A model generated the notes under the pieces. The model was not told the origin of the DNA, did not search any database, and worked only from the letters and a program-made list of their open reading frames with translations. Below are positions 17,144 through 33,477 of a stretch of 64,000 nucleotides of DNA, piece after piece. The stretch comes from Gemmatimonadaceae bacterium (GTDB taxonomy: Bacteria > Gemmatimonadota > Gemmatimonadetes > Gemmatimonadales > Gemmatimonadaceae): assembly GCA_013697785.1 (NCBI GenBank), contig JACCWE010000101.1:62001-126000 (forward strand), read 5' to 3'. The position numbers and the translations under genes are program-made. Within the stretch, counting starts at the first letter, position 1. Every line of letters starts with the position of its first letter.

Positions 17144-17172
17144 TTGACAGTGAAACGTTGCACTGTCATATT
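17144..17172 (+). promoter_or_regulatory. MerR-type promoter with internal dyad operator
   Basis: TTGACA (17144-17149) is followed after 17 bases by CATATT (17167-17172); TATTGC at a 19-base spacing is an alternative. An exact inverted repeat, TGACAGTG/CACTGTCA, spans 17145-17168 with AACGTT, itself a palindrome, at its centre. The dyad fills the spacer and touches the -35, the classic MerR-family arrangement. The regulator ATG lies at 17179, only a few bases after the -10, so its message would be nearly leaderless. Confidence 0.75.
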
Positions 17173-17178
17173 GCCGCC

Positions 17179-17829
17179 ATGTCTCCCGACTGCTACGACC
17201 TCCTCGAGCTCTGTGATCTCGCGGACGTCACCCCGCGAACCGTCCGCTACTATATCCAGCAAGGGCTCCTTCCTTCGCCGGACTCAAAGGGTCGCGGATC
17301 GCGCTACGACCGCACCCATCTCGAGCGAATTCAGCTCATTAAGCGGTTGCAGGGCAAGCACTTGCCTCTCGCGGAAATACGGACGCAACTCGCCGAGCTG
17401 AGCGACGCCTCGGTGGCGGCTCTCGTCGCGCAACCGGCATTCCCGGAGAAGTCGGGCTCAGCGCTGGCGTACGTGCAGGAGGTGTTGGCGAACAGCAAGA
17501 CACGCCTCTCGCTTGGTGGGAACGCAAGCTCACCGCAGGCGGTCCCCCCAGCGCCATCGCCGCGATCCGCTTCCACTCCCGCTGCGGCCCCTCCGCCATC
17601 ACCGCCATCGGCATCGCACCGGGAGAGCGTCACGGTCCCGCCTCCCGTCGCACCGGAGGAGATCGCAGCAACGACGTCTCTCCCGTCGCAACCGCGCTCC
17701 ACCTGGGAGCGCATTCCGCTCACGCCCGACATCGAGGTTCACGTTCGAAGACCACTGTCACGGCTGCACAACAAGTTGTTGGATCGCCTGCTCGAACAGG
17801 CTCGCAATCTCCTCTCCGACCAAACGTAA
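17179..17829 (+). CDS. MerR-family transcriptional regulator
   Basis: The 216-residue protein has an N-terminal MerR winged helix (YDLLELCDLADVTPRTVRYYIQQGLLP, then GSRYDRTHLERIQLIKRLQGKHLPLAEIRTQL), about residues 4-75. A Pro/Ala/Ser-rich linker (about 115-165) and a short C-terminal domain (IPLTPDIEVHVRRPLSRLHNKLLDRLLEQAR) follow. No metal-binding cysteine cluster typical of MerR/CueR is present. The dyad in its own promoter suggests autoregulation. It sits two bases before the VWA gene and probably controls that operon. ATG 17179 was chosen over an upstream TTG inside the operator. Confidence 0.85.
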   Translation: MSPDCYDLLELCDLADVTPRTVRYYIQQGLLPSPDSKGRGSRYDRTHLERIQLIKRLQGKHLPLAEIRTQLAELSDASVAALVAQPAFPEKSGSALAYVQEVLANSKTRLSLGGNASSPQAVPPAPSPRSASTPAAAPPPSPPSASHRESVTVPPPVAPEEIAATTSLPSQPRSTWERIPLTPDIEVHVRRPLSRLHNKLLDRLLEQARNLLSDQT

Positions 17830-26468: not shown

Positions 26469-27863
26469 ATGATCTCGATTCGAACGCTCGTTCTCGCCGC
26501 GATGATGGCGGCCCCGCGTCGCGCCCATGCGCAGGGTGCGAACGCGCGCCTCTCCGCGCTGGTCGACTCGATAGCCGGCGCCGTTCTCGCGAGCACCGGC
26601 GTGCCCAGTGCGACGGTGGCCGTCGTCACGCACGGACAGCTTGCGTATGCGCATGCGTACGGCGCGGCGAAGCTCGAGCCGCAGCTCGCGGCGAGGCCGG
26701 ACATGCGCTATGGCATCGGATCGATCAGCAAACAGTTCACGGAGGCGTGCGTGCTGCTCTTGCAGCAGGACGGGAAGCTCAAGCTCGATGATCCAGTGTC
26801 GAAATACCTCCCCGGTCTCACGCGCGGGAACGAGGTCACGATTCGCCAGCTTCTCTCGCACACTTCCGGCTATCAGGATTTCTGGCCGCAGGACTATGTG
26901 CCGCCCGCAATGGAGAGGGCTATCACCCCGCAGGGGATTCTCGATCACTGGGCGAAGCAGCCGCTGGACTTCGATCCTGGCACGCGCTGGCAGTACAGCA
27001 ACACGAACTTCGTGATCGCCGCGCTCATCGTGGAGAAGGCGAGCGGCAAGCCGTTCTTCCAGTTCGTTCGCACGCGTATCCTCGATCCACTCGGTATCAC
27101 CACCGCCGTCGACTTCGATGCCCTCGGCCCCTCCGCCGTACAGCCCACCGGCTATCTGCGCTACGGTCTCGGTCCGCTGCGCCCCGCGACCTCGACCGGA
27201 GCGGGGTGGATGTACGGGGCCGGCGAGCTCGCGATGACCGCGAGTGATCTCGCGAAGTGGGACATCGCGATGATCAGGCAGTCGCTGCTCGAGCCCGAGT
27301 CGTACCGCGCACTGCAGACGACGGTGCTGCTCAAGAGTGGCGTCAGCGCGAACTACGGACTTGGCGTCGATGTCGACATGGCGGGCGGGCACCGCACGAT
27401 CGAGCACAGTGGAGAGGTCGCCGGCTTCACCGCGGAAAACATCGTGTATCCCGACGACAGCGCCGCCGTCATCGTCCTCACCAATCAGGACGCCGTTCCG
27501 GCATCCGCACTGATAGCGAGCGCGATCGGACGCACGCTCTTCACCACCGAGGACGCCGACACGCAGAATCGCACGGCGCGAGCGCGCGCGATCTTCGACG
27601 GCTTGCAGCACGGAACGATCGATCGCTCACAGCTCACCGCGGACGCCAGCGCCTACTTCAGCGCCCAGGCACTCGGCGACTTCCACAGTACGCTCGGCCC
27701 TCTCGGCGCGCCCACCGCCTTCGTCCAGACGGCGCAACGCGAGCGCGGCGGGATGCTCGAGCGGATCTACCGCGTCACTTTCGCCGGTCGTACGCTACGC
27801 GTGTGGACGTACGAGCTGCCGGACGGGAAGCTCGAGCAGTATCAGTTGGCCCCAGCGGGGTGA
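26469..27863 (+). CDS. Secreted serine hydrolase, beta-lactamase class C-like
   Basis: The 464-residue protein has a signal peptide (MISIRTLVLAAMMAAPRRAHAQ) and a serine beta-lactamase/DD-peptidase domain. The catalytic SxxK is SISK (in GIGSISKQFTEA), the YxN motif is YSN (RWQYSNTNF) and the third motif is HSG (IEHSGEVAGF). The order and distances fit class C beta-lactamase-related esterases and D-aminopeptidases. The last part (about 345-464) is a smaller C-terminal domain common in these proteins. The 3' end overlaps the convergent SDR gene by 89 bases. Confidence 0.9.
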   Translation: MISIRTLVLAAMMAAPRRAHAQGANARLSALVDSIAGAVLASTGVPSATVAVVTHGQLAYAHAYGAAKLEPQLAARPDMRYGIGSISKQFTEACVLLLQQDGKLKLDDPVSKYLPGLTRGNEVTIRQLLSHTSGYQDFWPQDYVPPAMERAITPQGILDHWAKQPLDFDPGTRWQYSNTNFVIAALIVEKASGKPFFQFVRTRILDPLGITTAVDFDALGPSAVQPTGYLRYGLGPLRPATSTGAGWMYGAGELAMTASDLAKWDIAMIRQSLLEPESYRALQTTVLLKSGVSANYGLGVDVDMAGGHRTIEHSGEVAGFTAENIVYPDDSAAVIVLTNQDAVPASALIASAIGRTLFTTEDADTQNRTARARAIFDGLQHGTIDRSQLTADASAYFSAQALGDFHSTLGPLGAPTAFVQTAQRERGGMLERIYRVTFAGRTLRVWTYELPDGKLEQYQLAPAG

Positions 27864-29331
27864 CGTCGTCGACGGCGCCCGCCTTCGCGATCCCGCGCAG
27901 CATGCCGCCGAAGATGAGTCCGTGCACGGGAAGGAGCGCATACCAGTAAAGAAGGCCCGCGAGACCGCGCGGCTCGAAGATCGCCGTCTGTCTTATCGTG
28001 CTGCCGGTGCCGCTGCCGCACACCTCGAACTGCAGCCACGCGCGCCCCGGCACCTTCATCTCGGCGCGTAGGCGAAGCAAATGGTCCGGTTCCACGGCCT
28101 CGACGCGCCAGAAGTCGAGTGCATCGCCCCGGCGCAGCGTGTCGGGATGACGTCGACCGCGCCGCATCCCCGCGCCTCCGAAGAGAAGGTCGACGCCGCC
28201 TCTCGCCTGCCACATCCAGTTTCCGTAATACCAGCCGGCCTTCCCGCCGATGCGCTCTATGGCCTTGAACGCGGCGGATGGCGTCCTGCTCACATACGTC
28301 TCCCGTGTATCGATGAGGCGTGAGCTGGACTCAACGTCGACTTGCGTCGGAGTGCTTCCGAGTGACGAGGATGCGTCCGACCACCGCGTCTCTGCGAACT
28401 CGCGATCCTCGTTCCGCATCGCCAGCGCGATCGCATCCGACATTCCGCGCGGATGTATCGAGGGAAACAAAACCGAAGCATCCTGCGACTTGACGACGGT
28501 CTCGTTGCGCACGCTGTCGATCAGCTTCGCGCCAACGCGTGCATACACGGGCGTGATGAGCCCGAGCCAGCGACTCGAGAGCCACGGCGTGAGCACCGGC
28601 ACCTTGAGAAACCATCGCCCGAGCCCGCGCTGCGCTGCGTACTCGCGCATCAGATCCAGATACGAGACCTGCTCCGCACCTCCGATCTCGACCACTCTGC
28701 TCTCGGCCAGTGCCACATCGGCGGCAGCGAGGAGATAGGCGAGCACGTCGTCTACCGCGATCGGCTGCGTGCGTTGAGCGACCCAGCGCGGAATCAGCAT
28801 CACCGGCAGCCGTTCGACCAGCGCGCGCACGAGCTCGAAGGAGAGGCTCCCTGAGCCGATGATCACCGACGCGCGCAGCTCGACGGTGAGCACTCCGCTC
28901 TCGCGCAGGATTCGCCCCACCTCCTGCCTGCTCTCGAGATGCTCCGAGAGCTCGGCGCTCCGACCAAGACCGCCGAGATAGACGATTCGCTCGACTCCAG
29001 CCTCGGCCGCCGCTCGCGCGAAGTTGCGCGCGCCTTCGCTCTCTTCGCGCGCGAAATCATCGCCTCCCGCCATCGCATGAATGAGGAAGTAGGCTGTGTG
29101 AACCCCATCCAACGCGGAGGTCAGCGAGGCGGGATCGTTGACGTCGCCGCAGACGATCTCGATGTCTGACTCCGCCTCCCCACGCGCATCTTCCGGACGC
29201 CGCACCATGCAGCGAACGCGATCGCCGCGCTCGTGCAGTGCGCGCACGAGCCGCCCGCCGATATATCCCGTCGCGCCCGTCACCAGACGCAGGGGCTTCG
29301 ATTCGAGAGTGTCGTGCGGCTGGGGGTTCAC
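27775..29331 (-). CDS. NAD(P)-binding SDR protein with DUF2867 domain
   Basis: The 518-residue product starts with an extended-SDR/NmrA-like Rossmann fold: VTGATGYIGGRLVRALHERG binds the dinucleotide, and GDVNDPASLTSAL and VYLGGLGR follow (about 12-300). A C-terminal DUF2867 domain (about 335-500) contains GWYYGNWMWQARGGVDLLFGG and DFWRVEAVEPDHLLRLRAEMKVPGRAWLQFEV. Fusions of this kind are found next to light-responsive regulators in other bacteria. GTG 29331 overlaps the stop of the CarH-like regulator gene (GTGA), so the two are co-translated. The substrate is unknown. Confidence 0.85.
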   Translation of the reverse strand: MNPQPHDTLESKPLRLVTGATGYIGGRLVRALHERGDRVRCMVRRPEDARGEAESDIEIVCGDVNDPASLTSALDGVHTAYFLIHAMAGGDDFAREESEGARNFARAAAEAGVERIVYLGGLGRSAELSEHLESRQEVGRILRESGVLTVELRASVIIGSGSLSFELVRALVERLPVMLIPRWVAQRTQPIAVDDVLAYLLAAADVALAESRVVEIGGAEQVSYLDLMREYAAQRGLGRWFLKVPVLTPWLSSRWLGLITPVYARVGAKLIDSVRNETVVKSQDASVLFPSIHPRGMSDAIALAMRNEDREFAETRWSDASSSLGSTPTQVDVESSSRLIDTRETYVSRTPSAAFKAIERIGGKAGWYYGNWMWQARGGVDLLFGGAGMRRGRRHPDTLRRGDALDFWRVEAVEPDHLLRLRAEMKVPGRAWLQFEVCGSGTGSTIRQTAIFEPRGLAGLLYWYALLPVHGLIFGGMLRGIAKAGAVDDVTPLGPTDTARASRPAARTSTRVAYDRRK

Positions 29332-30281
29332 TCCGCGTCGCTGTCCGACCGAAGCTCGGCCAGAAGGCCCGAGACGCTCGATTCGACACGCACACCGATC
29401 GCGGCGAGCTCTCTGCCGAGCATCGCGGCGCCAGCGCCGCCTGCGATCAGCGTCACGTCGCCAGGGATCTGCGCGCGCAGATTGCGCATCTCGCCGACGA
29501 CCCGCGCGCTGTCCTCGACGTAGACGATGCTCACCGCGACGAGCTGTGCATCCGACTCTTTCGCGGCCCTCGCGATTTCCGCTGCGGGGAGGTTGGCTCC
29601 GAGGTAGAGGACGTTCCACCCTTCGAGCGCCGCCGAGGCGCCGACGAGCGATGCGCCAATGACGTGTCGCTCACCGGCGACGGTCGTAACGAGAACCGTC
29701 GGAGCGTCGGGTCGGCTGGTGAACGCGCGCATCATCGCCATGATGATGTCATGCAGCGCAGACGTGACGAGATGCTCGTGTGCGGGGGCGAGTCGCCCGG
29801 CATGCCACTCGTCACCGATGCGGCGCAGCAGCGGCGCAGCGACGGTCTCGAGAAACGCAGGCATCCCCATGACGACCGCCGCACGCCTGAGCGCCTCGTC
29901 GAGCGCCGACGCGTCGAGCATTCTGGCGAGCGATAGCGATGCGCCGACGACATCGCCGGGCGCGTAGGCGATCGTCTTTGCGGGTGCGCGCTGCTTGCGC
30001 GCGACGCTGTCGTCTTCGACGAGCGCGGCCAGAGTTTCGTTCGGCAACCTCGCGACGCGACCGATGCTGCGGCCGCCACGCATTGCGGTTTGGATCAGGA
30101 CGAGGCGATGGACGTCGTCATCGGTATACAGGCGAAGCCCGGAAGAGGCCCGAACCGGCGAGACCGCGCCGTATCGACGTTCCCAGACGCGCAACACGTC
30201 CTGCGAGAGCCCCGTGCGCTCGGAGACGACGGCAATGGGGTGGCGCTGATCGTGGTCGAGAGGCGAGATGAACGTTTCCAT
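29328..30281 (-). CDS. CarH/LitR-like B12-binding MerR regulator (light-sensing type)
   Basis: The 317-residue protein has an N-terminal MerR helix-turn-helix (HPIAVVSERTGLSQDVLRVWERRYGAVSP, about 14-80), a helical cap (about 105-190) and a cobalamin-binding Rossmann domain (about 193-300). The residues expected for adenosylcobalamin photoreceptors are present: Trp159 followed by His160, the W-x9-EH motif (Trp159, Glu169, His170) and the B12 ligand motif E-x-H-x-x-G at 204-209 with His206. In known CarH proteins the dark AdoCbl form represses DNA and light releases it. Family assignment is by motif; light response here is inference. It is divergent from a DUF378 gene and co-translated with the SDR gene. 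Confidence 0.87.
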   Translation of the reverse strand: METFISPLDHDQRHPIAVVSERTGLSQDVLRVWERRYGAVSPVRASSGLRLYTDDDVHRLVLIQTAMRGGRSIGRVARLPNETLAALVEDDSVARKQRAPAKTIAYAPGDVVGASLSLARMLDASALDEALRRAAVVMGMPAFLETVAAPLLRRIGDEWHAGRLAPAHEHLVTSALHDIIMAMMRAFTSRPDAPTVLVTTVAGERHVIGASLVGASAALEGWNVLYLGANLPAAEIARAAKESDAQLVAVSIVYVEDSARVVGEMRNLRAQIPGDVTLIAGGAGAAMLGRELAAIGVRVESSVSGLLAELRSDSDAE

Positions 30282-30287
30282 GGGCGT

Positions 30288-30338
30288 AATCTGGCATCAT
30301 GTCCAAGGATTGTCAAGCAAATTAGCTAGACATAATAT
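30288..30338. promoter_or_regulatory. Overlapping divergent promoters of the CarH-like and DUF378 genes
   Basis: This AT-rich gap carries TTGTCA (30310-30315, plus) with TAATAT (30333-30338) after 17 bases, and on the minus strand TTGACA (30316-30311) with CAGATT (30293-30288) after 17 bases. The two -35 boxes cover the same bases, so one bound repressor could block both. A loose dyad, TTGTCAA and TCGACAA (30310-30344), could be the operator. The regulator ATG lies only seven bases after its -10. Confidence 0.6.
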
Positions 30339-30445
30339 CGACAACGGCACCGCCCTTGCTCTAGTAGCCCCACACGATCGGAACCCACCATGAAATCACT
30401 TGCGGCCGTTCGATGACCGCTTTTCGCCTCTCTCGGAGCACGACA

Positions 30446-30670
30446 ATGAAGAATCTCGACGTAGTAGCCGCAGTCCTCTTGGTCGTTGGTGGCCTGAACT
30501 GGGGACTTGTGGGCGCAGCGAATTTCGACCTGGTTGCGACGATCTTCGGCGCGATGTCGCCGCTCAGCCGCATCGTCTACATCCTCGTCGGTCTGGCCGC
30601 GATCTATCAGGCGCTTCAGTGGAAGGCGATCCAGCGCCGCTGGCTTTCGACCGCACGCGCGCACGCGTAA
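30446..30670 (+). CDS. DUF378-family small membrane protein
   Basis: The 74-residue product has two membrane helices (LDVVAAVLLVVGGLNWGLVGAANFDLVATIFG and LSRIVYILVGLAAIYQAL) and the family core GGLNWGLVG. Function is unknown. ATG 30446 follows GGAG; an earlier in-frame ATG at 30413 adds eleven residues not seen in the family. It is divergent from the CarH-like regulator and probably under its control. Confidence 0.85.
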   Translation: MKNLDVVAAVLLVVGGLNWGLVGAANFDLVATIFGAMSPLSRIVYILVGLAAIYQALQWKAIQRRWLSTARAHA

Positions 30671-30680
30671 TGGGTAAGTG

Positions 30681-30764
30681 AGGGAGCAACGCTCCCTTCG
30701 AGGTTGCGAAAAAATGGCCGGAGAATCCTCGACGCATCTCGCGTCGCAGATTCTCCGGCCATTT
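30681..30764. terminator. Two tandem hairpins between convergent genes
   Basis: AGGGAGC/GCTCCCT (30681-30697, three-base loop) is followed by a perfect 16-bp inverted repeat, 30712-30727 with 30749-30764 (AAATGGCCGGAGAATC and its complement), with an inner GACGC/GCGTC stem. A-runs on the left and T-runs on the right flank the long stem, so it can terminate both the DUF378 gene and the convergent lipoprotein gene. Confidence 0.75.
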
Positions 30765-30813
30765 CGCATCTCCGCCTCGCACCGCGCATGGCGCGCGGTG
30801 CGAGCTTCATCAA

Positions 30814-33072
30814 CTACGGCGTGCCGACGATCGCGAAGATCCCCGTGCTGCTGACCGGCGCGAAGACGATATGCGACGTCGTGTTCACCCCTCCGTTCGG
30901 AATCAGCTGCCAGCTTCCAGCAACGTACCGGTAGAGGCGCAGCGTGCTCTGACTGACGCCAGACGGCAGCGTCGCGGGATCGTAGTTGATACCCAGCTCG
31001 CCGGTGACCGCGAACGTCACCACGGGCGAGACGACGTACGCCGTGCCGCCGATGAGACCCGGCAGCGGGGTCGGAGCCGGCGTCGTCCACACGAAGAACG
31101 TCGTCGTCGAAGACAACGCACCCTGCGGGAAGAAGAGTGACAGGTGACACGACTCGACGCAGAGCGAGCCGCCAGCCGATCCGATCGACTGGCTGAACGC
31201 AACCGTGAAGCTCATCGTCGCCGTCCCATGCGCGCCCTTGGAATCGGTCGCGGTGAGCGTGATGATGTGGGGTCCGCCCGAGAGAGTCGCGAGTGGGAAC
31301 GACGTGCCCGTTCCGATCTGACCCGAGACGTTGTCCGTCCACACGAGAGACGCACCCGAGAGCGTGCCGTCCTCCGGGTCCGTGCCCGTACCAGCGAACG
31401 AGATCGACGCGCCCGGTAAGATCACCGCGCCGCTGCTCGGCGACGTGATCTGCGCGGTCGGCGCCTGATTCTGTGCGGGCGCAGTCACCGTGATCGTGAC
31501 CGATGCAGTTCCCGTCTGTCCCTTGCTGTCCTTCGCGGTCAGCGTGATCACGTGCGAGCCGACGGCGAGAGTCGTGAGCGAGAACGACGTCCCCGTCCCG
31601 ATCTGCGTGGCGCCATCCGTCCACACGAGTGACGCGCCTGTGAGCGTTCCGTCTTCCGCATCGTGGCCGCTGCCAGCGAAGCCGACCGACGCTCCCTGCA
31701 CGAACGATGCGCTGTTCGCCGGAGACGTGATCGTCGCCGTTGGATGCTGGTCGACCGGAGCTCCGGTAATCACGATGGTGACGGTCGCCGTCCCCTTCGC
31801 GCCCTTGCTATCCGTGGCCGTGAGCGTGATGACGTGCGTGCCGACTGCCAGCGTCGAGAGCGAGAACGACGTTCCCGTCCCGATCTGCGTCGCACCATCG
31901 GTCCACACGAGCGACGCGCCCGTGAGCGTGCCGTCTTCCGGATCGACACCCGTGCCCGCGAAGCTCACCGTCGCACCCGAGACGAACGACGCATTGTTGG
32001 CGGGCGAAGTGATCGTCGCCGTCGGCTGCTGGTTGAACGGCGGCGGTGCATCCGCCTGCGCCGACACGAGCGACTGCGAGACCGTGCGCGATCCGCCCGG
32101 CGTGAGTACGATGGCGTTTGCGGTGCTCGATCCCCAGAAGTAGAGAATCGCGTTGTCGTTTACGCCGCTGGCGGGATCGGAAACCGTGAGCGTGGGCGTT
32201 ACCGTGTACGCAAATGGCGAAGAGACTGCATCCGGCCAGGAAACATTCTCCAGAAGATCGGGGGCAACTGGTACCGGCGTAATGGTACTCGGTTGCGTCA
32301 CTGTACCAAAGACGCTGAAAAGCGGAGAGGGGATGTTGCCGTCGTTGTCCTGAATTCGGAAGAAACCAAACGAGGGGGACGTGTACGACTTCTCGGTGAA
32401 CACCACAGCGGCGTCCGGGCTAAGCTGCTGAAATGTCGGCCCGTCGTCGTCTCCGATCTGCATGTCCCACAAGTAGCGAATTCCAATCGACACGTTCGAC
32501 CCGCCGTTGTTCATCACCTTCGTCGTGACTTCGACCGTCGACGTTTCAAAGGTCGAACCGTGGGTGTCGACGTCCTCGACGATGGTGAGCGCATCCGGGG
32601 TGTTCGGCGGACCGGAGAGCACATACGTAGTGCGAAAGCCTGTCGCTCCAAGGGCGACAACAGTCGCGGTGACGCCAGCATGCGTCGGATTCAGAAGGAA
32701 TGTCGCTGCTCCGCGTGCGTGACTCCCGTCGTCATTGACGTAATCGGTATTCGTGGTGAACGAATGGATCGTGTTGTAGGAGGTTCCGGGAGCACCGAAA
32801 CCGAAGAGCACATCCTGCGGTGTGCCTATCGAGAGTGTGACCGGATGACTTGGCCCGGTTCGCACCGTGTACTGCCCTACGCCTGCACCAGCGAGTTGAT
32901 TGACGAATACGGAGTAGAAGCCGTTCGTCGCGCTTCCGACCGCATCGGCCGAGGCATGCACTCGTGCTTTCTCGGCCATCTTGTTCTTGCCGTTGTTGCT
33001 CGGCGATGTTCCCTCGCTGCACGCCGCGAGGGCGAACACCATTGCCAGCCCGATAACCACTGTGCGCTTCAT
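30814..33072 (-). CDS. Secreted lipoprotein with three tandem Ig/PKD-like repeats
   Basis: The 752-residue protein starts MKRTVVIGLAMVFALAACSEG, a lipoprotein signal with Cys18; GAGGAG precedes the ATG at 33072. An N-terminal region of about 290 residues is beta-rich, with GFYSVFVNQLAGAGVGQYTVRTG near its start and IRYLWDMQIGDDDGP further on. Three near-identical units of about 90 residues follow, each with TSPANxASF, EDGTLTGASLVWTD, QIGTGTSF and HVITLTATDSKG. These are Ig-like/PKD cell-surface repeats. A C-terminal domain (about 640-752, GSLCVESCHLSLFFPQGALSSTT) resembles ZU5-like folds. Likely a surface adhesin or matrix protein. The repeats are also visible at DNA level. Confidence 0.8.
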   Translation of the reverse strand: MKRTVVIGLAMVFALAACSEGTSPSNNGKNKMAEKARVHASADAVGSATNGFYSVFVNQLAGAGVGQYTVRTGPSHPVTLSIGTPQDVLFGFGAPGTSYNTIHSFTTNTDYVNDDGSHARGAATFLLNPTHAGVTATVVALGATGFRTTYVLSGPPNTPDALTIVEDVDTHGSTFETSTVEVTTKVMNNGGSNVSIGIRYLWDMQIGDDDGPTFQQLSPDAAVVFTEKSYTSPSFGFFRIQDNDGNIPSPLFSVFGTVTQPSTITPVPVAPDLLENVSWPDAVSSPFAYTVTPTLTVSDPASGVNDNAILYFWGSSTANAIVLTPGGSRTVSQSLVSAQADAPPPFNQQPTATITSPANNASFVSGATVSFAGTGVDPEDGTLTGASLVWTDGATQIGTGTSFSLSTLAVGTHVITLTATDSKGAKGTATVTIVITGAPVDQHPTATITSPANSASFVQGASVGFAGSGHDAEDGTLTGASLVWTDGATQIGTGTSFSLTTLAVGSHVITLTAKDSKGQTGTASVTITVTAPAQNQAPTAQITSPSSGAVILPGASISFAGTGTDPEDGTLSGASLVWTDNVSGQIGTGTSFPLATLSGGPHIITLTATDSKGAHGTATMSFTVAFSQSIGSAGGSLCVESCHLSLFFPQGALSSTTTFFVWTTPAPTPLPGLIGGTAYVVSPVVTFAVTGELGINYDPATLPSGVSQSTLRLYRYVAGSWQLIPNGGVNTTSHIVFAPVSSTGIFAIVGTP

Positions 33073-33477
33073 GAGCTCCTCGTCGACGCTGCCAGAGTGC
33101 AAAAGCGGAGGCGATGGACGCCCCCGTCGGTAGATCATCGCGGCACATGTTCGGACGGCTGCTCGTCGCGAAACGGGCCCACCGCCGGCACCTCGCGATG
33201 ATCTTCCACAATTAGAATTTGCCCAGAATGTCGATGTCCGCTGCAACTATAGCAAGAGGATTTTGCATCCGGGCGGTAACGATGACTCGAACTGGAACAC
33301 ATCTTTACGGAAGGCGGCTCAATCCGTACGCCCGGGCACCTTCGACATGCCTTCGGTAAGCGGGATTAGTGCTATGGGGTACGTAAAGGGAGTACGTACA
33401 GGGTGTGCTCACGGGACCGACGACGCGGTCGCGCCGCTCGCTTCGAGGGTCGTCCGAAGGGGTGGAGTTTCTCGAGG
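33073..33477. other. Non-coding gap between the Ig lipoprotein and the frameshifted gene
   Basis: This 405-base divergent gap has no supported gene. It includes a possible minus-strand -10, TATAGT (33251-33246), for the lipoprotein gene, and a pair of perfect TACGTA palindromes at 33380-33385 and 33393-33398 about 80 bases before the pseudogene start. Confidence 0.5.
33380..33398. promoter_or_regulatory. Paired TACGTA palindromes, possible regulator site
   Basis: TACGTA occurs twice, 33380-33385 and 33393-33398, 13 bases apart from start to start, in the context GGGTACGTAAAGGGAGTACGT. Two palindromes a little more than one helical turn apart suit a dimeric or tandem binding site. The regulator is unknown. 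Confidence 0.4.

Follow-up and report, generated by a model that had tools for sequence, protein, structure and literature searches.

The window analysed here, a 64,000-nucleotide stretch of DNA from a soil-type Gemmatimonadaceae bacterium, probably contains a light switch of the CarH (class I LitR) kind that acts locally and regulates itself. The most likely role of the unit is in photo-oxidative stress, with a CarH-type B12 repressor in control. In the dark, this regulator would bind adenosylcobalamin (AdoCbl) and form dimers or tetramers, and this oligomer, sitting on four half-sites at 30300–30343, would block two divergent transcripts: that of the regulator with a co-translated SDR-DUF2867 protein and that of a DUF378 protein. 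Light would break the Co-C bond, the oligomer would fall apart and both transcripts would be made. The two proteins, an NAD(P)-dependent SDR-DUF2867 fusion and a small membrane protein, would then protect against photo-oxidative damage. By analogy with known CarH systems, we infer that the promoters are repressed in the dark and released by light, and likewise infer B12 binding, the light response, the direction of control and the function of the products.

Regulator and its predicted B12-binding residues

The regulator ORF runs from 30281 to 29328 on the minus strand and encodes 317 aa. It comprises a MerR HTH (residues 16–79; MerR_1, E = 8e-13), a four-helix cap (122–179; B12-binding_2, E = 4e-6) and a Rossmann B12 domain (195–297; PF02310, E = 3e-14). 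This Rossmann domain, which class II LitR lacks, speaks against a class II identity. In the cap, W159, H160, E169 and H170 form an intact Wx9EH with Trp followed by His, and the B12 domain contains E204-R205-H206-xx-G209, S251xV253 and G281G282. Residues W159/H160/E169/H170/E204/H206 align with W131/H132/E141/H142/E175/H177 of Thermus thermophilus CarH (TtCarH). The first-pass annotation had read Trp159-His160, W-x9-EH and ExHxxG at 204–209 from the sequence, and all were found at these positions. The recognition helix motif RxWERRY is kept as R31-V-W-E-R-R-Y37.

The CarH B12 motif, D/ExHx2G-x41-SxT/V-x22-27-GG (PMC9304148), is complete, with a spacing of exactly 41 residues between E204xH206xxG209 and S251xV253. 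Experimentally confirmed AdoCbl photoreceptors share a light-response signature of GxxW, EH, GxxH and GxxxP (SignatureFinder; PMC11796333), and the regulator has all four elements. The whole signature was present in 44 of 61 family regulators; 17 were without some part of it, so that some members of the family, like CarA, may work without B12 or light.

The best solved relatives by sequence were structures of TtCarH (E = 2e-26). An AlphaFold model of the regulator, built from 44 relatives, had a mean pLDDT of 92.6, and the best 50 PDB matches in a structure search with this model were all CarH (50/50). Its cobalamin domain superimposed on CarH structures with an rmsd of about 2.5 Å. The earlier assignment to CarH was thus borne out by both alignment and model, with the cap Trp/His/Glu residues aligned and the overall fold fitting CarH. 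The regulator did not pass the NCBIfam equivalog model for TransRegCarH (NF052513), scoring 114.8 bits against a cut-off of 400 bits. TtCarH scored 509.9 bits, and relatives inside clear light clusters reached 133–144 bits, also below the cut-off, which indicates that the model is narrow. A PduO-type cobalamin adenosyltransferase is encoded in the same genome. A P0001 search of genome contigs returned a single distant partial match only.

Among the oligomer-interface residues of TtCarH, Arg176 and Gly192 are kept (as Arg205 and Gly221), while Asp201 is replaced by Asn230 and Gly160 (placed by hand alignment) by Ser. In TtCarH, Arg176 and Asp201 form a salt bridge of the head-to-tail dimer. Given these two substitutions, oligomerisation of the regulator may differ from that of TtCarH.

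Predicted operator and divergent promoters

CarH binds tandem 11-bp repeats of the form nnnnTnnACAn (PMC9304148). The region between the divergent genes contains a palindromic 2+2 arrangement, TGTCCA-N5-TGTCAA-N10-TAGACA-N5-TCGACA (30300..30343), in which 16 of 16 specified bases match CarH half-sites. This predicted operator consists of four TnnACA half-sites in two tandem pairs of opposite orientation that lie over both divergent promoters: TTGACA (30316..30311) and TGGACA (30305..30300) on the minus strand (pair at 30300..30316), and TAGACA (30327–30332) and TCGACA (30338–30343) on the plus strand (pair at 30327..30343), each pair spaced by 11 bp. The presumed DUF378 promoter, TTGTCA-N17-TAATAT (30310..30338, plus strand), is located inside the operator, with its −10 box between two half-sites. 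The presumed regulator-SDR promoter, TTGACA-N17-CAGATT (30288..30316, minus strand), has a weak −10 box, and its −35 box (30316..30311) is also an operator half-site. This promoter would place the start site at about the ATG (a leaderless transcript), and relatives are similar in layout. Both promoters were read from sequence; a protein bound at the predicted operator would cover them both.

Half-sites were scanned over 280 bp at the start of each of 61 regulators. Of these regions, 39 had one tandem pair or more, where shuffles predict 0.2 regions; the background was 10 of 2693 control tiles from the same loci and 8 of 274 AT-richer tiles. As a positive control, the scan recovered the three tandem half-sites upstream of Thermus carH. 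The usual layout was TGTnnA-N5-TGTnnA-N9/10-TnnACA-N5-TnnACA, and a spacer of 9 or 10 gave the best fit in 24 upstream regions, that of the window among them.

Spacer-9 and outward-shifted forms of the operator also exist; the following genome-wide counts cover the spacer-10 form. In the genome of origin (a 3.81-Mb assembly in 169 contigs), the exact 2+2 site occurs once and is the sole site with fewer than three mismatches. Among 179 family genomes (at most one mismatch), the site was found in 17, one in each, and all 17 adjoin a regulator homolog; the reversed-pattern control gave no sites in the same genomes. An exact search of 395 genomes of the phylum yielded 25 sites in 24 genomes and none for the control. 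Since the pattern was absent from 162 of the 179 family genomes at this threshold and, as an exact match, from 371 of the 395 phylum genomes, the 2+2 layout is one operator class and not a universal one. We found no published report of such an opposed 2+2 arrangement of half-sites.

Neighbourhoods were read for 24 of the sites, of which 19 adjoin a regulator homolog, four a fasciclin-like gene and one an SDR-DUF2867 gene. The four fasciclin-adjacent sites have no regulator homolog within 1.5 kb. They belong to other families of the phylum, with the exact operator beside the fasciclin-like match (L163, L173, L175 and L177, around position 1501), and their placement suggests regulation in trans. 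Cu/Zn-SOD-like and FAD-oxidase-like genes are also present in L177.

Gene partners in the window, the genome and relatives

The SDR-DUF2867 gene (27775..29331, minus strand; 518 aa) begins with a GTG at 29331; in a frame-shifted GTGA, this codon shares bases with the stop TGA of the regulator (29330..29328). The first-pass annotation had noted this overlap and read the two genes as co-translated, and the GTGA supports this reading. As the gene ends at 27775, most of it is outside the region originally annotated (29328–30670). Its product has an NmrA/NDUFA9-like NAD(P)-binding domain followed by a C-terminal DUF2867 domain (E = 2e-33) of predicted mixed alpha/beta structure. The best structural matches were diverse and included NDUFA9, KstA11 and epimerases; the DUF2867 half alone had no match among the best 50. 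The literature search on DUF2867 returned nothing useful. E. coli YbjT (SDR + DUF2867) is a full-length homolog with about 33% identity. The last 30 residues of the window protein have low prediction confidence, and the 3′ end of its gene overlaps that of a beta-lactamase-fold gene (26469–27863, plus strand) by about 90 bases (27775–27863).

The DUF378 gene (30446..30670, plus strand; E = 1e-22) lies divergent from the regulator on the opposite strand, in agreement with the first-pass annotation. Counted from the start that homologs share, its product is a small membrane protein of 74 aa; the ORF is open from ATG 30413, and comparison with homologs makes ATG 30446 the likely start. A long inverted repeat follows at 30715–30775 (AAATGGCCGGAGAATC ... 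GATTCTCCGGCCATTT) and is likely a bidirectional terminator that separates the unit from the gene at 30814. That gene (30814–33246, minus strand) encodes a large, probably surface-exposed protein in which an Ig-like repeat (FAGTG.DPEDGTL.GASLVWTD...) occurs in three similar copies. A second MerR-like HTH protein (17158–17829; 223 aa, identified by eye), followed by a 534-aa gene, has no apparent relation to the CarH unit.

The main known role of CarH is the control of carotenoid synthesis. The absence of carotenoid genes from the window, noted in the first-pass annotation, extends to the whole genome: SQS_PSY (PF00494) had no matches anywhere in the assembly, rated 100% complete, and consequently no crtB-type carotenoid pathway was found. 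This result and the single intact operator speak against a carotenoid-controlling CarH system. The genome has one photolyase, on another contig (C67), with no tandem half-site pair nearby; it was considered as a further operator target, and no operator was found upstream of it. The single fasciclin match is a partial domain, also on another contig, so the fasciclin partner seen in relatives is not local here. With no phytoene synthase, a photolyase without an operator and no full fasciclin gene match, the switch seems to act on its own locus in this genome.

Related loci show either a DUF378-fasciclin pair divergent from regulator-SDR-photolyase or a set of photolyase, cyclopropane synthase and DUF1365, which in other organisms is induced by light or singlet oxygen. 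The order of DUF378 divergent from regulator-SDR, with the 4-nt overlap, recurs in L037, L039 and L078, whose regulators are only 38–50% identical to that of the window; in L039 the SDR gene is cut by the contig end, and in L078 the gene order continues regulator-SDR-photolyase. L081 has SDR and fasciclin genes on one side and regulator-photolyase on the other, followed by DUF2177, SRPBCC, CFA synthase, DUF1365 and FAD oxidase genes. L174, from another family of the class, has photolyase-regulator divergent from DUF378-fasciclin under an exact operator. Overall, a photolyase is joined in L078, L081, L174 and L176, sets of CFA synthase, DUF1365, FAD oxidase and DUF2177 occur in L043, L045, L047 and L081, and fasciclin genes stand beside 26 of 60 family regulators. 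A fasciclin gene is also found beside a MerR regulator in Eleftheria terrae. L043 (6879–7499), L045 and L047 share a conserved, roughly 200-aa protein that has no Pfam match (EGSNLEGRRFTLP...), thioredoxin/peroxiredoxin-like by eye, which is encoded between the fasciclin and desaturase/CFA genes of light clusters.

In the phylogenetic tree, the window regulator groups with L034–L036 (99/99); in these loci a fasciclin gene is the regulator's neighbour. L037 and L039, with SDR and DUF378, are nearby, and L078 branches deep. The module is either old with losses or was assembled more than once; under either history, its repeated association argues for function.

Known systems and alternative explanations

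T. thermophilus CarH (LitR, TTHB100) has the same MerR HTH, cap and B12 domain with all AdoCbl-contact residues, a −35 box inside an 11-bp half-site and a divergent operon layout. Its region also carries SDR-DUF2867 and photolyase genes; in Thermus HB8 the annotated SDR-DUF2867 protein (TTH_RS10455) is 46% identical over its length and is encoded about 3.6 kb from carH. In contrast, the two regulators share only about 33% identity with Asn replacing Asp201, the two opposed pairs of the window operator stand against three tandem repeats in Thermus, the window regulator has neither crtB nor a lycopene cyclase gene beside it, and DUF378 is divergent. The Thermus HB8 carH-ldrP operon continues into a gene for an NDUFA9-like protein (L180, 7425–8288). 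The best matches of the SDR-DUF2867 family include solved NDUFA9 chains, which makes this protein a second SDR-type companion of CarH. Myxobacterial CarH/CarA share the TnnACA half-site at 11 bp, and their CarH has an intact Wx9EH (PMC9304148), but five one-direction tandem repeats are found at the crt promoter and the targets are carotenoid genes.

Other light- and singlet-oxygen-responsive systems have similar gene sets. Pseudomonas class II LitR clusters (pmlR1/pplR1) contain phrB, SDR, FAD oxidoreductase and ufaM genes, so that photolyase, SDR, FAD oxidase and CFA-type methyltransferase are common to them and to relatives of the window regulator. Within the set around pmlR1, phrB and ufaM show 25–33-fold light induction (PMC9758184). 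Unlike the window regulator, class II LitR has no Rossmann B12 domain, works with a LOV protein and uses the site TGTACA-N12-TGTACA. The singlet-oxygen-responsive genes tabulated for Rhodobacter sphaeroides include cfaS, phrA, the SDR gene RSP_1087 and the fasciclin protein gene RSP_1409 (PMC7074977); these companions of the RpoE-ChrR regulon are the same, but a sigma/anti-sigma pair is in control instead of a B12 repressor. Together, the partners in relatives and the Pseudomonas, Rhodobacter and Thermus parallels point to photo-oxidative stress.

A B12-binding, light-independent regulator, sensing cobalamin level or redox in a CarA-like or ligand-switching manner and acting on the same promoters through the same operator, is unlikely. 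Such a regulator would be compatible with the Asp201 to Asn and Gly160 to Ser replacements at oligomer interfaces, with the retention of operator half-sites by family relatives that have lost the Trp or His, and with M. xanthus CarA, a B12-independent relative using the same half-sites (PMC9304148). However, the Trp and full Wx9EH lost in CarA are intact here with the following His, and relatives have photolyase and singlet-oxygen genes as partners rather than B12 genes.

Class II LitR keeps the four-helix part only (PMC9758184), whereas the window regulator keeps both B12 sub-domains and every ligand residue. No LOV-like gene was noticed next to it. It is very improbable that the window regulator is a MerR-type protein whose B12 fold is vestigial and which responds to another ligand or, in the manner of class II LitR with its short LOV protein, through a partner, although class II LitR controls a gene set of this kind via LOV (PMC9758184). 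Chance gene order, with the regulator acting elsewhere and DUF378 and SDR-DUF2867 being unrelated neighbours, would fit the three closest regulators by tree (L034–L036), which have fasciclin instead of DUF378 and no adjacent SDR, and the location of most family SDR-DUF2867 genes away from any regulator. Against this, the same order and 4-nt overlap recur in three loci with diverged regulators, and the only intact operator of the genome stands between DUF378 and regulator-SDR; we consider chance order extremely improbable.

Regarding the preferred CarH-type light switch, the first-pass suggestion of a new light-controlled stress unit stands in part. The partners in relatives are photo-oxidative-stress genes and no carotenoid target was found. 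Novelty of the unit as such is not supported: CarH, its half-site and the SDR-DUF2867 gene in the Thermus carH region were already known, and photolyase, CFA synthase, SDR and fasciclin genes occur in known light- or singlet-oxygen-induced sets (PMC9758184, PMC7074977). As far as the literature searched shows, the new elements are the operator class with its opposed 2+2 half-sites, the association with DUF378 and fasciclin, and the occurrence of a CarH unit where the genome has no phytoene synthase. We regard as evenly balanced the fuller proposal that Gemmatimonadota CarH uses a distinct 2+2 operator to lock both divergent promoters, and that here its whole regulon is DUF378, the regulator and SDR-DUF2867, for carotenoid-independent photo-oxidative membrane protection.

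With these findings, the known range of CarH-type B12 light sensing would come to include Gemmatimonadota. The layout of the operator offers a prediction of how a divergent promoter might be spanned by one CarH tetramer or by two dimers, and it may be of use for green-light optogenetics. The orphan families DUF2867, DUF378 and bacterial fasciclin gain a concrete context, photo-oxidative stress, and Thermus, which is genetically tractable, carries an SDR-DUF2867 homolog. The suggested retention of the switch without phytoene synthase would mean that a CarH gene need not imply pigment control.
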